This document shows, in pieces, positions 44,981 to 57,876 of a DNA stretch of 64,000 bases; position 1 is the first letter of the stretch; each line of letters starts with the position of its first letter. This DNA is from Lachnospiraceae bacterium. GTDB lineage: Bacteria; Bacillota; Clostridia; Lachnospirales; Lachnospiraceae. Both the position numbers and the translations under genes were made by a program. Location of the stretch: contig JAFUNK010000013.1 of NCBI GenBank assembly GCA_017482205.1, positions 62,001 through 126,000 of the forward strand, in the 5' to 3' direction. Under the pieces are notes generated by a model. It was given only the letters and a program-made list of their open reading frames with translations. It searched no databases and was not told the origin of the DNA.

Positions 44981-47632
44981 TTACCACCTGTTTACCAGTT
45001 TGTTTTGCAGTCTGTATAAGGTATTTAAGGCATCTAAAGGAGTTAAATTACTAATATCAATTTCCTTTAATTCCTTTATGACATCTTCATCTTTTACGGT
45101 ATCAAAAAGTGACATTTGTGCCATGTCTACTTCGTCATAATGCTCCACTTTCTTTGCTTTGCCGTCGCCTTTGGTATCTACTGCGATACTTTGGACTTTT
45201 TCGATAATATCGTTATCCAAAAGCTGATTTACAATTTCTTTGGCACGGTCAATTACCATATCCGGCACGCCTGCAAGTTTTGCCACCTGAATACCATAAC
45301 TCTTGTCTGCACCGCCTTTTATAATTTTACGCAGGAATACAATATCGTCACCACGTTCTTTTACAGCGATACAATAGTTATTTACATTGCTGATTCTGCC
45401 TTCCAGCTCCGTCAATTCATGATAATGGGTTGCAAACAAAGTTTTCGCCCCCAAAATCTTTCTGTTACTGATATGTTCAATCACCGCCCATGCAATGGAA
45501 AGTCCGTCAAATGTAGAGGTTCCGCGACCGATTTCATCCAGAATCAAAAGGCTGTTAGAGGTTGCATTACGTAAAATATTGGCTACCTCATTCATTTCCA
45601 CCATAAAAGTGGACTGACCGCTTGCCAAATCGTCGGAAGCACCTACACGGGTAAAAATACGGTCAACAATGCCGATATTGGCACTTTTAGCCGGTACAAA
45701 GCAACCAATTTGCGCCATCAATACAATCAAAGCAGTCTGACGCATATAGGTGGATTTACCTGCCATGTTGGGACCGGTAATAACTGCAATTAAGTGACTG
45801 TTATTGTCCAAATAGGTGTCGTTTGCGATAAACATATCGTTGTCAATCATTTTTTCTACAACCGGGTGTCTACCCTCTTTAATATCCAATAAGCCCTTTT
45901 CGTTTAATTTCGGGCGCACATAGTTATTGCGCTCAGATACCAGTGATAAGGAGGCAAACACATCCAGTTTTGCCACAGCTTTGGCGGTACGTTGGATACG
46001 TTCCATTTCGTCGGCGATGGCATCTCTGATTTTACAGAACAAGTCATACTCCAAGGTGTTTAACTTGTCCTCCGCATTTAAAATCATATCTTCTAATTCT
46101 TTTAAACGGGGCGTGGTATAACGTTCTGCATTTGCAAGAGTCTGTTTTCTGATATAATCTTCCGGCACTAAATCTTTATAAGAATTGGTAACCTCAAAAT
46201 AATAACCAAAAACCTTGTTGTACTTGATTTTCAGATTTTTGATACCGGTACGTTCCCTGTCTTCGTTTTCCAATTCAGCAAGCCATGTCTTACCGTCTCT
46301 TTTGGCATTTCTAAGTTTGTCAATATCATCATCAAAGCCCTCTTTAATCATGCCACCTTCCCTGATGGAAATGGGCGGTTCTTCCTCAATGGCAGCTTCA
46401 ATTAAAGACGAAATATCTTCTAATCCGTCAATATCTTCCCTGATACCGCAAAGTACATCTTTTTTAAAACTGCTCAGAACAGTCTTGATATGAGGCATCA
46501 TCTGTAAAGAGTTGCGGAATGCAATCAAATCTCTGGGATTGGCGGTCTTGTAGCTGACACGGCTAAGTAAACGCTCCAAGTCATAAATGGGATTTAAATA
46601 CTCTCTGATTTCGTCTCTGGAAACGGTATCCTGCGACAATTCTTCCACTGCATCCAGACGCTTCTCAATTTCATCCTTTTCAATCAAAGGCTGTTCTATC
46701 ATACTGCGTAGCGTCCGTCCGCCCATAGCGGTTTTGGTCTTATCAAGTACCCATAAAAGGGAGCCTCTCTTCTGTTTTTCCCGTAAAGTCTCTGCCAGTT
46801 CCAGATTCCGTCTGGTGGAGCTGTCTAATAGCATGTATTTACTGGTTAAATAGGGATAAATATGGCTGATATGACTTAAGGATGTTTTCTGGGTATCATA
46901 CAGATACATTAAAAGTGCTCCTGCCGCAATCAGTCCGGTAGGAAAATCTTCTAATCCCAGCCCAATTAGGGTATTTACCTTAAAATGCTTTAAAAGACAT
47001 CTCTTTGCTGCCTCATCATCAAAGAAATGAGGCTCTAATGCATAAACGGTAATGCCCAGTCTGCCTTTTAAATCGGCAATATCCATACCACTTACGAGGA
47101 ACGCATCATTGCAGATAATTTCCCTTGGCTGATATTTCATAATTTCATCCATCAGCTTTTTTAAATCATCCACTTCGGTTACATAATAGTCACCGGTGGA
47201 TACATCTGCTAAAGAAATACCTATTTTAGCCTGCATGTACGTAATACACATCAGGTAGTTATTTTTTGACTCGTCCAGCGCATGCATATCCATATTGGTA
47301 CCGGGAGTCACAATACGCACAACTTCACGTTTCACAAGTCCTTTGGCTGTTTTGGGATCTTCTACCTGCTCACAGATTGCAACCTTATAGCCTCTGCTGA
47401 TTAATTTATTTAAATATCCTTCCACTGCATGAAAAGGAATCCCGCACATAGGAGCACGTTCTTCCTGTCCGCAGTCTTTTCCTGTCAGGGTGATTTCCAA
47501 TTCTCGGGAGGCTGTAATTGCATCCTCAAAGAACATTTCATAAAAGTCACCCAAACGGTAAAAAAGAATACAGTCCGCATATTCCTTTTTGGTTTCCAGA
47601 TATTGTTGCATCATGGGAGTAAATTCAGCCAT
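44981..47632 (-). CDS. mutS: DNA mismatch repair protein MutS
   Basis: 883 aa. Mismatch-binding Phe-x-Glu motif is visible as FYEMFFEDA (about 30). Walker A GPNMAGKSTYMRQ (about 614), SLLILDEIGRGTSTFDG (Walker B) and C-terminal DVIKEL...IDISNLTPLDALN. ATG 47665 has no Shine-Dalgarno, whereas ATG 47632 (MAEFTPMMQQY) follows ACAGGAGAAAA and fits MutS. 69 nt before mutL. Promoter and leader hairpin upstream. Confidence 0.97.
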   Translation of the reverse strand: MAEFTPMMQQYLETKKEYADCILFYRLGDFYEMFFEDAITASRELEITLTGKDCGQEERAPMCGIPFHAVEGYLNKLISRGYKVAICEQVEDPKTAKGLVKREVVRIVTPGTNMDMHALDESKNNYLMCITYMQAKIGISLADVSTGDYYVTEVDDLKKLMDEIMKYQPREIICNDAFLVSGMDIADLKGRLGITVYALEPHFFDDEAAKRCLLKHFKVNTLIGLGLEDFPTGLIAAGALLMYLYDTQKTSLSHISHIYPYLTSKYMLLDSSTRRNLELAETLREKQKRGSLLWVLDKTKTAMGGRTLRSMIEQPLIEKDEIEKRLDAVEELSQDTVSRDEIREYLNPIYDLERLLSRVSYKTANPRDLIAFRNSLQMMPHIKTVLSSFKKDVLCGIREDIDGLEDISSLIEAAIEEEPPISIREGGMIKEGFDDDIDKLRNAKRDGKTWLAELENEDRERTGIKNLKIKYNKVFGYYFEVTNSYKDLVPEDYIRKQTLANAERYTTPRLKELEDMILNAEDKLNTLEYDLFCKIRDAIADEMERIQRTAKAVAKLDVFASLSLVSERNNYVRPKLNEKGLLDIKEGRHPVVEKMIDNDMFIANDTYLDNNSHLIAVITGPNMAGKSTYMRQTALIVLMAQIGCFVPAKSANIGIVDRIFTRVGASDDLASGQSTFMVEMNEVANILRNATSNSLLILDEIGRGTSTFDGLSIAWAVIEHISNRKILGAKTLFATHYHELTELEGRISNVNNYCIAVKERGDDIVFLRKIIKGGADKSYGIQVAKLAGVPDMVIDRAKEIVNQLLDNDIIEKVQSIAVDTKGDGKAKKVEHYDEVDMAQMSLFDTVKDEDVIKELKEIDISNLTPLDALNTLYRLQNKLVNRW

Positions 47633-47670
47633 GGTTTTCTCCTGTTCTGTGGTGTTTAAACTCATAATTT

Positions 47671-47897: not shown

Positions 47898-48143
47898 CTG
47901 CATTTATGGGCATATTACAGCATATTTTGCATAGTAATGCCCAAAAATAATGATTTTTTACAATTATTTTGGTAGCTTTGGGCATAGAAAACTTAAAAAG
48001 TGGTGCTAGTGCCCATATTTTGGCTTTTTTGTGGGCATCAGGCCGGTAAATCTATTCTGTAATGCCCAAAAAGGACTTTTTTTAAGGATAAAATACAATT
48101 TTTTTGGGCATTGGATTAAGAAAAAATCCATTTATGCCCATTT
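47898..48143. repeat. Four-hairpin TGGGCAT/ATGCCCA element, copy 1
   Basis: 246 nt in the 642-nt gap between miaB and mutS. Four inverted pairs, each TGGGCAT then ATGCCCA about 30 nt later: 47907/47937, 47979/48010 (right arm GTGCCCA), 48032/48062 and 48105/48134. Starts of successive hairpins are 72, 53 and 73 nt apart. Spacers are A/T-rich. About three quarters identical by eye to copy 2 at 57468. No reading frame of note. The layout (long, short, long spacer) makes the whole element roughly its own inverted repeat, so its strand is not assigned. Confidence 0.88.
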
Positions 48144-48274: not shown

Positions 48275-49729
48275 CTACTCCACCATGCTTCCCATATAAT
48301 AAAATCCGCAATACTTATCCAGTTTCACATTCACAATCTTACCAATCAGACTCTTATCTCCCGGGAAATGTACCAGTGTATTGTTGGAAAGTCGTCCTGT
48401 AAGCAGTGTGGCATCATGTTCATTTACTTCTTCCACCAGTGCATCCATTACCATGCCCTCGTAGCGTTTTACACGTTCTCTGGCGGTTTCCTGCACGGTT
48501 TTTAAGAGCTTGTCAAAGCCTTCTTTTACCACTTCTTCAGGCACCTGATTGGGCATGGCAGCCGCAGGCGTTCCGGTACGTTTTGAATAGATAAAAGTAA
48601 AGGCATTGTCGTACTGCACTTCTTTTACCACTTCTATGGTTTCTTCCACATCTTCCAAGGTTTCACCGGGGAAGCCAACGATTAAATCTGTTGTAATGGC
48701 GATATCCGGAATTTCCTCTCGGATATGCTTAGCCAGTGCTATGTACTGTTCCTTATTGTAGACACGGTTCATTGCTTTCAAAATTCGGTCTGAGCCTGCC
48801 TGTAAGGGAAGGTGTAAATGTCTGCAAATCTTCTTGGAATTCTTCATCACCTGAATCAGTTCTTCGGAGAGATCCTTGGGGTGTGAAGTCATAAAACGGA
48901 TTCTTTCGATACCTTCAATCTTTTCTACTTCCTGTAAAAGTTCTGCAAAAGTCATAGGTTCGGGCAGATTTTTTCCATAAGAATTTACATTCTGACCCAA
49001 AAGCATGACTTCTACTACGCCCTCTGCCGCTAATGCCTCTATTTCTCTGATAATATCTTTGGGATTGCGGCTTCTTTCGCGTCCGCGAACATAGGGTACG
49101 ATACAGTAGCTGCAGAAATTGTTACAGCCAAACATAATATTGATACCGGACTTAAAAGGATACTTACGCTCAATAGGCAAATCCTCCACAATCTTATCCG
49201 TATCTTCCCAGATATCAATAATCATGCCCTTCTGTTCAAAGGTAGTATTCAAAAGTTCTGCAAACTTATAAATATTATGGGTTCCGAAAATCAAATCCAC
49301 TATGCGATAGCTTGTTTTGATTTTTTCAATCACAGTAGGCTCCTGCATCATACAACCACAAAGAGCAATCTTCATATGGGGATTTTTTTTCTTAAAGCCT
49401 TTCAATTCGCCCAGTCTGCCGTAAACACGTTGGTTTGCATTATCTCTGACTGTACAGGTATTGAAAATGACAAAATCCGCATTTTCATCCTCAATAATAT
49501 CGTAACCAACCAGTCTTAAAATACCGGTCAGTTTTTCAGAATCCCTGGCATTCATCTGACAACCAAAGGTGGTAACACAACAGGTAGGGGTACGTCCTAA
49601 TTCTTCCGTAAGTGCTTTTACGTGTTCTTTAACTTTCGCAATAAAATAGTATTGTCTTTGAGGCTCTGTTTCAGGAGCTTTAGACTGTAAATCTATAGAG
49701 TCTATTTCTTTTAATATTTCTTGGTTCAT
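48275..49729 (-). CDS. miaB: tRNA-2-methylthio-N6-dimethylallyladenosine synthase MiaB
   Basis: Radical SAM methylthiotransferase acting on i6A37; 484 aa. N-terminal MTTase domain with Cys in TFGCQMNARDSE, FNTCTVRDNA and LCGCMMQE; radical SAM cluster in CNNFCSYCIVPYVRGRERS; C-terminal TRAM domain ending KLDKYCGFYYMGSMVE. ATG 49729 follows AAAGGAAAATAAT. No terminator is visible beyond its stop; the four-hairpin repeat begins about 130 nt downstream. Confidence 0.96.
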   Translation of the reverse strand: MNQEILKEIDSIDLQSKAPETEPQRQYYFIAKVKEHVKALTEELGRTPTCCVTTFGCQMNARDSEKLTGILRLVGYDIIEDENADFVIFNTCTVRDNANQRVYGRLGELKGFKKKNPHMKIALCGCMMQEPTVIEKIKTSYRIVDLIFGTHNIYKFAELLNTTFEQKGMIIDIWEDTDKIVEDLPIERKYPFKSGINIMFGCNNFCSYCIVPYVRGRERSRNPKDIIREIEALAAEGVVEVMLLGQNVNSYGKNLPEPMTFAELLQEVEKIEGIERIRFMTSHPKDLSEELIQVMKNSKKICRHLHLPLQAGSDRILKAMNRVYNKEQYIALAKHIREEIPDIAITTDLIVGFPGETLEDVEETIEVVKEVQYDNAFTFIYSKRTGTPAAAMPNQVPEEVVKEGFDKLLKTVQETARERVKRYEGMVMDALVEEVNEHDATLLTGRLSNNTLVHFPGDKSLIGKIVNVKLDKYCGFYYMGSMVE

Positions 49730-57467: not shown

Positions 57468-57712
57468 CTGCATTTATGGGCATATATAGCATATTTTTTC
57501 ATAGTAATGCCCAAACTCAAGGAATTTTTGCGATTATTTTAGTGGTTTTGGGCATAGAGTGCAAAAAAGGTGCTCCCTATGCCCACATTTTGGAAATTTT
57601 GTGGGCAGTAGACGAGTAAATTTACTCTGTAATGCCCAAAACAACCTTTTTAAAGGATAAAAATCCAATTTCTTGGGCATTGGAGCAGAAAAAAAGCCAT
57701 TTATGCCCATTT
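57468..57712. repeat. Four-hairpin TGGGCAT/ATGCCCA element, copy 2
   Basis: 245 nt in the 587-nt gap between proB and the DUF896 gene. Inverted pairs: 57477/57507, 57549/57579, 57602/57632 (left arm TGGGCAG) and 57674/57703. Hairpin starts are 72, 53 and 72 nt apart, nearly the same as copy 1. Inner stem bases differ between the copies but pairing is kept: hairpin 2 here has GGGCATAG...CTATGCCC, hairpin 3 has GAGTAAATTTACTC. Same orientation as copy 1 and the same context, downstream of a minus-strand gene end and upstream of another gene's start. Confidence 0.88.
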
Positions 57713-57796
57713 CAAAACAAAAGCGTTGTTTTTCCATATGTAGCGCAGTTGGTTAATGGCAAGCTTACTCAATTTTAATCTATTTAATATTCCCAT

Positions 57797-57819
57797 ACAA
57801 TTGAACTGCGTTCAATTGT
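57797..57819. repeat. Perfect 10-bp-arm palindrome downstream of proB
   Basis: ACAATTGAAC tgc GTTCAATTGT, 60 nt beyond the proB stop. No U-tract on the minus strand, so not a standard terminator; could be a protein-binding site or 3' mRNA stem. The short gap sequence around it shows nothing else. Confidence 0.6.
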
Positions 57820-57876
57820 CATCGCTCGCAAAAGAGATTGCTCTCAATTCAAATTTGTTAATATAATTTACGTACC

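Follow-up and report, generated by a model that had tools for sequence, protein, structure and literature searches.

The window, a 64,000-nucleotide stretch of a Lachnospiraceae genome, contains an intergenic element at 47898..48143 in which one short word recurs in alternating orientation, and the locus raises the question of what this element is and what might act on it. The element is an eight-word array of alternating TGGGCAT and ATGCCCA, equal to four hairpin units. On the plus strand, TGGGCAT lies at 47907..47913 (word 1), 47979..47985 (word 3), 48032..48038 (word 5), and 48105..48111 (word 7), and on the minus strand at 47937..47943 (word 2), 48062..48068 (word 6), and 48134..48140 (word 8). 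Word 4, on the minus strand at 48009..48015, reads GTGCCCA on the plus strand and carries one mismatch. The sequence-only reading had described eight copies of a 7-nt word in strict alternation; the alternation and the four hairpins are confirmed, with seven of the eight words exact. The words span 47907-48140 with start-to-start spacings of 30-42-30-23-30-43-29, which reproduces the earlier distances of 72, 53, and 73 nt between hairpin starts. The 29-31 nt reported between the arms needs correction, as the arms start 29-30 nt apart and 22-23 nt lie between them. The outermost words 1 and 8 are inverted like the terminal inverted repeats of a MITE, and the inner words alternate too. The array lies between two minus-strand genes, an 894-aa open reading frame (44981..47665), presumably MutS-like by the look of its sequence, and a 484-aa one (48275..49729), which on the same basis we take to be a MiaB-type methylthiotransferase-like protein.

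The window contains 25 occurrences of TGGGCAT against 10.86 expected, a number reached in none of 100 shuffles. The element's seven exact copies of one 7-mer were matched in 2 of 5000 Markov resamples of its 246 nt, in a test that required neither the alternation nor the spacing. A second array of the same family (L012) lies at 57477..57709 with spacings of 30-42-30-23-30-42-29 and one mismatch in word 5 (57602). The decisive point for the reality of the element is recurrence, namely 17 full-length copies in the genome and the eight-word spacing in other assemblies.

The genome itself (2.16 Mb in 28 contigs, 74% complete) holds about 28 dispersed arrays of two kinds, built on TGGGCAT and TGGGTAT. 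A search with the element gave 18 matches, of which one is a 27-nt piece at a contig end and the rest are full length; an additional decayed TGGGCAT-family array is found at L150. The TGGGCAT copies occur in either orientation, and their flanks are unrelated apart from subfamily stretches. Among the 17 copies, identity is 97.2% in the words, 76.0% in the spacers, and 40.2% in the outer flanks. The TGGGTAT family occupies ten places as three hairpins, with six words at about 28-23-28-42-28; the six words are complete in nine of the ten, and L160 is without one. The array motif extends to ttTGGGYATA. About 25 of the arrays are solo and mostly intergenic. Co-directional neighbours are the commonest, followed by convergent and a few divergent ones, in a comparison whose control sets are too small for a claim and in which small open reading frames overlap some arrays. 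Inspection of the ten TGGGTAT copies by eye revealed no consistent target-site duplication, with one short possible match at L148. Six of the TGGGCAT copies (L006, L008, L009, L010, L012, and L013) have longer flanks in common. A 56-bp inverted repeat (93%) with GACAATTGAAC..GTTCAATTGTC surrounds L013, and one of its arms lies at about 57793-57850 of the window. These copies and the inverted repeat may represent a separate repeat or a larger composite.

The same layout is found beyond this genome. A blind pattern scan of a collection of 84,980 species genomes, done before any gene was associated with the arrays, gave 62 stretches, and an eight-word chain with at most nine mismatches was present in twelve loci. 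Most of the 62 look like chance or coding matches, and only those twelve passed the eight-word test. Their hosts are Lachnospiraceae SIG306, Eubacterium UBA3279, Lachnospiraceae RGIG4191, Agathobacter E09_bin289, and bacterium S3R_St_47, five assemblies besides the source genome. Thirteen other stretches, read by eye, revealed partial arrays in UBA3279 and in Clostridiales SUG1361. When TGGGYAT was allowed, 45 distinct eight-word chains were found in six assemblies including the source genome, and 44 of them have gaps of 28-30, 42-43, 28-31, 22-24, 28-31, 41-43, and 27-30 in a scan that tolerated 4 bases either way per gap at a small penalty. The L147 row of this set is misregistered, and L014, which has an insertion, falls outside the 45. 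Among 138 genomes of the genus, the source genome matches the exact three-word TGGGCAT pattern 26 times in the forward and 23 times in the reverse direction, two other members match it once each, and the rest do not match it. Another genus member, G088, has a TGGGTA array adjoining its homolog of the gene described below (L208). Phage and plasmid records searched with the array gave no match, nor did viral contigs searched with the three-word pattern. The search of the genome and its relatives proposed by the sequence-only reading thus returned further copies in both, and neither outcome that it had named as speaking against it, an absence of copies elsewhere or a match to a described RNA family, occurred in these searches.

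Two further features of these genomes were noted. In Eubacterium UBA3279, L057 and L055 show a tandem expansion of hairpin units with a period of about 72 near contig ends; the geometry is almost CRISPR-like, yet the spacers are related. In RGIG4191 and SUG1361, the spacers between words at L119, L128, L140, L023, and L060 share GTTTACATAA or a close variant, which recurs in the flanking DNA of L081.

A gene family accompanies the arrays. P0001 is a 261-aa open reading frame flanked on both sides by TGGGCAT arrays, and its paralog P0002 (58% identical) is adjoined by a TGGGTAT array, so that each word family of this genome has a single gene, adjoined by array copies. At L147 (1294-1607, G000 C2), the array adjoining P0002 is extended by four direct repeats of 39-40 bp, each containing one word in an orientation that is identical throughout. 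The family consists of proteins of about 260 aa. No Pfam family was assigned in 36 members scanned, save for marginal unrelated hits in two; NCBIfam gave no match that counts for P0001 and P0002, the two scanned, and the PDB none for the family. In profile comparison, P0001 aligns over residues 134-258 with the C-terminal end of the PADLOC model PDC-S68 (E 1.7e-29), with further matches to PDC-S69 (2.4e-5) and, weakly, to HEAT_CxxC_PD-DEXK (0.017; 0.00061 for P0002). Thirteen residues (R153, S154, K155, E157, Y173, E174, P186, D187, F188, E202, H203, G205, and E239) are invariant in 36 aligned homologs, picked from 81 to cover the range and without inner stops, and are 98-100% conserved in all 81, fragments included. 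We read this region, from its conserved residues, as a putative PD-(D/E)XK nuclease domain, with E157/E174, PD187F, and E202-H203 as the candidate motifs, the third being E-H-x-G and not E-x-K. With the protein as query, the viral scan was negative, three weak matches came from phage records, and eight matches came from plasmid records. The plasmid matches are confined to the C-terminal part (six annotated as AAA family ATPases, one as a RecQ helicase, and one without annotation). A phage or plasmid origin was rejected on these results, together with the lack of array matches there.

Homologs of P0001 are present in all seven array-bearing genomes, against 50 of the 138 genus genomes (E 1e-10). 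A family member lies beside a TGGGYAT array in five of the seven, and in SIG306 no more than 2 bp separate the end of the array from the stop codon of the gene. Of the 11 full-length homologs (at least 45% identity; P0001 included, fragment L183 left out) in these seven genomes, eight adjoin a TGGGYAT array (L163, L164, L165, L166, L168, L170, L171, and L177), L167 has one hairpin, and L172 and L173 have none by the main scans. In an order-wide sample, homologs were found in 73 of 392 genomes and 32 of 173 genera (E 1e-20). We examined 81 loci, in most cases the top match of the genome concerned; 42 of them have within 600 bp an alternating inverted-word array scoring above the maximum of 114 control pieces from the window. 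The remaining 39 have no array by the main scan, and a looser scan of 13 loci added five, so some of the array-less homologs have no array at all or have decayed or AT-rich arrays. Counted by flank, arrays are found in 39 of 148 near flanks against 2 of 148 Markov resamples and 4 of 136 flanks at 800-1400 bp, although related arrays are not independent in these tests. Two side observations concern repeats of other forms beside homologs. At L206 (828-1426, G006), a 24-word CCGGGGC array with a strict 52-bp period directly precedes the gene, and the looser scan found direct repeats with a period of 61-64 bp instead of alternating words at L211, L215, and L199.

The array word varies with the protein. 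The consensus words of the nearer relatives include TGGGCAT, TGGGTAT, TGGGCGT, TGGACAT, TGGGTCT, GGGGTAT, and GGGGCTT, and those of other homologs include TGTGACAG, CCGCGCGG, ACGGACAA, GCACGGAC, and TACGGTT. Word distance tracks protein distance in 18 automatically detected cases (Mantel r 0.47, p 0.0002). In a larger set of 23, the correlation is r 0.34 (p 0.001) with five words read by eye, of which L187 passes the main scan, L202 the looser scan, and L188, L190, and L194 neither. Part of the correlation could reflect shared descent instead of recognition.

If each gene matches its own word, that word should be amplified in the genome of the gene. The gene of G082 carries TGGGCGT, and this forecast, made for one word, was borne out: G082 contains 22 TGGGCGT pairs and each of the 137 other genus genomes at most three, with such pairs in any number in 42 of the 138. 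Two checks that were able to fail held, this amplification and the presence of the gene family in all seven array-bearing genomes. The TGGGCGT arrays listed for G082 have steps of 81-52-81, 52-81, 52-82, and 82-52, the long step being about one helical turn more than 72. The agreement between the word of the solo arrays and that of the resident gene was assessed for TGGGCAT, TGGGTAT, and TGGGCGT. Comparison of one locus between G293 (L227) and G226 (L236), found by browsing a BLAST table and not foretold, shows that gene and array change together as a cassette. The flanks are 87% and 84% identical and the proteins 51%, and the array words, partly read by eye, are TGGAYAC/TGGACAT-like in one and TGGAGA in the other. 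The homologs at L175 and L185, from two different assemblies, are only 37% identical and share 949 bp of neighbouring sequence (69% identical), indicating that the gene keeps one chromosomal position.

The arrays could act as RNA or as duplex DNA. The sequence-only reading had considered a multi-hairpin RNA, in which the four hairpins, or one long folded-back hairpin, would act in a transcript as a 3' end stabiliser, an attenuator, or a non-coding RNA. The predicted fold is strong on both strands (z -3.74 and -3.95), but a set of inverted words would give such a fold anyway. Folding of the loops relative to shuffled loops is uneven, with mean z from +1.3 to -2.6; in the TGGGCAT copies of the source genome, mean z is about -1.8 to -2.0 for the loops of words 3-4 and 4-5, which thus exceed their shuffled counterparts, and near 0 for that of words 1-2. 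Convergent gene pairs flank 5 of 16 TGGGCAT arrays of the source genome and 6 of 22 arrays of other genomes with both neighbours called, but only 1 of its 10 TGGGTAT arrays. The paired words show no compensatory base changes: deviating columns form 44 standard pairs against 43.5 with partners shuffled over all hairpins, 243 of 500 shuffles being as good, and in mixed elements the C.A state (14 times) and the T.G state (13 times) are equally common. Rfam gave no match at gathering score in the window and, in six loci, two unrelated matches far below it. No terminator-like site was called by a scan that allows loops of 3-8 nt only and is blind to longer ones, and the terminator reading was set aside with this limit. 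The spacing also fits RNA poorly. The 60 distinct hairpin steps of 42 arrays, which differ in their words, all fall into five groups near 42, 52, 63, 72, and 82 bp (40-44, 51-54, 61-64, 70-75, and 80.5-83 bp), with none outside. Their helical phase is concentrated at periods of 10.0-10.2 (R 0.77, p 5e-5, the floor of the test) in a scan that limited steps to 36-88 and left the grouping unconstrained, with related arrays not independent; the looser scan added steps of 61 and 64. Steps grouped in this way would suit protein sites that share one face of a DNA duplex and are unexpected for RNA. After the fold, loop-shuffle, covariation, and Rfam tests the RNA reading is unsupported, and we consider it highly improbable.

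Two other readings accept that the arrays act as DNA. MITEs are short, dispersed, quasi-palindromic, and gene-free derivatives of insertion sequences, and the arrays might be ordinary MITEs, internally deleted copies of a classical insertion sequence whose own transposase has disappeared or escaped notice; the nuclease gene would then be adjacent by coincidence or hitch-hiking. The copies are indeed dispersed, quasi-palindromic, mainly intergenic, and patchy among species. However, they contain multiple evenly phased words and not terminal repeats alone, the number of hairpins varies (three, four, or longer tandem forms) while the spacing stays constant, the words are kept while the spacers drift, no consistent target duplication is visible by eye, and the association with the nuclease recurs over many unrelated words, which makes a plain MITE improbable. 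A related idea, that words 1-4 and 5-8 are the fused left and right ends of a transposon, was weakened by the arrays that have three hairpins or form long tandems. The main rival is a host system for regulation or defence with a resident nuclease, which the arrays would hold back or position by serving as chromosomal addresses (operators, self marks, or sponges). They would be kept because their loss frees a harmful enzyme. Preservation of the words in diverged copies fits this idea, as does the fixed chromosomal position of some genes (the 949 bp common to L175 and L185, and both flanks of L227 and L236), and a similar nuclease domain occurs in candidate defence proteins. Dispersal better fits the high solo copy number in a single species together with the absence of the TGGGCAT pattern from the 137 other genus members save two single matches, and 88 of 138 members are without a homolog at E 1e-10. 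We regard a host system as rather unlikely.

The explanation that we favour, and hold to be probable, is that a dedicated protein of the P0001 family binds the element as an array of sites in double-stranded DNA and that the solo copies are non-autonomous repeats. Computation supports the arrays themselves, the constraint on their words, the helical spacing, the association of gene and array, the diversification of words, and one forecast of amplification; we infer from these the binding, dimerisation, cutting, and spread of arrays by the nuclease. P0001 would combine an N-terminal part with no assigned fold and the predicted C-terminal PD-(D/E)XK-type nuclease domain, and would recognise a word of 7-8 bp, ttTGGGYATA in this genome. 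Two facing words about 29-30 bp apart may be arranged as for a dimer, and with word pairs stacked at whole helical turns the protein may stack along the array. Every protein lineage would have its own word. Most likely the nuclease acts in trans and has spread the solo copies as non-autonomous repeats, much as RAYT does with REPs; its activity would disperse the arrays, and the gene would remain at one copy per word in this genome. The earlier proposal of a platform for a TGGGCAT-binding protein is well supported by the constrained words, the helical spacing, and a gene family with matching words. Its alternative of a non-autonomous mobile element holds as a pattern, with about 25 solo copies and one gene per word, while the transposition step is only conjectured. 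Against the favoured explanation, the genomes compared are incomplete drafts, another protein could be missing from the source genome, 39 of the 81 homolog loci are without an array by the main scan, and two array-bearing genomes fit poorly, with one hairpin near the closest homolog in G166 and only distant, array-less homologs in G167.

Some features of the arrays recall known systems. The ends of Tn7 and Mu have several transposase sites, in arrays of phased binding sites, and TnsA of Tn7 is a PD-(D/E)XK-type nuclease. Here an inspection of the gene's surroundings, which was not systematic, revealed no DDE partner or ATPase, and the arrays occur alone and in short and long tandem forms. The group of candidate defence proteins PDC-S68 (PADLOC), whose models are about 1200 residues long, shares the C-terminal nuclease-like domain, whereas the P0001 family has about 260 aa and is without the long N-terminal part. 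Unlike CRISPR arrays, with identical repeats and unique spacers, the words alternate in orientation and the spacers are related between copies. The closest parallel is the REPtron, in which REP/BIME repeats are associated with TnpA-REP (RAYT) (PMC8266576). There, as here, one protein gene adjoins repeats of its own kind among many dispersed intergenic copies, protein and repeat diversify together, and the gene itself is not visibly multiplying (PMC8266576). Dispersed intergenic repeats with a cognate gene beside some copies were likewise found in our genomes. TnpA-REP, however, belongs to the HUH/tyrosine enzymes, and its substrates are single-strand hairpins with GTAG-type motifs (PMC8266576), whereas the present protein is of the PD-(D/E)XK type, its words are spaced by helical turns, and base-pair covariation is absent; the last two, both indirect, point against recognition of single-strand hairpins. 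The Y1_Tnp domain (PF01797), the one transposase domain covered by the search, had no match in the source genome, which is 74% complete, and any match in only two of the seven array-bearing genomes, so a RAYT/IS200 origin was set aside.

We found no description of a system of word arrays and a nuclease in the literature, within a scope of openly accessible journal papers that gives weak evidence of absence. The arrays and the nuclease-like genes suggest that Lachnospiraceae-like bacteria have a family of protein and DNA-array pairs not described so far. Its logic is REPtron-like, with differences in enzyme class, substrate form, and repeat motif (PMC8266576). For a puzzling intergenic repeat the results provide a general rule, in which the gene lies next to an array, the word follows the protein, and the spacing follows whole helical turns, and they name the P0001 family as the likely trans-acting protein for the arrays. 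They offer a new answer to the origin of interspersed bacterial repeats and a large natural set of protein-DNA recognition pairs for decoding and for tools. A broader claim is evenly balanced in our judgement, that these small PD-(D/E)XK-type proteins, each with its own duplex word, form a new class of two-part repeat system that spreads or maintains phased arrays and changes gene and array together in cassette-like fashion. If true, this class would supply a library of many orthogonal protein-word pairs from nature, and bacterial interspersed repeats would have another route of origin besides those of the HUH and DDE enzymes.
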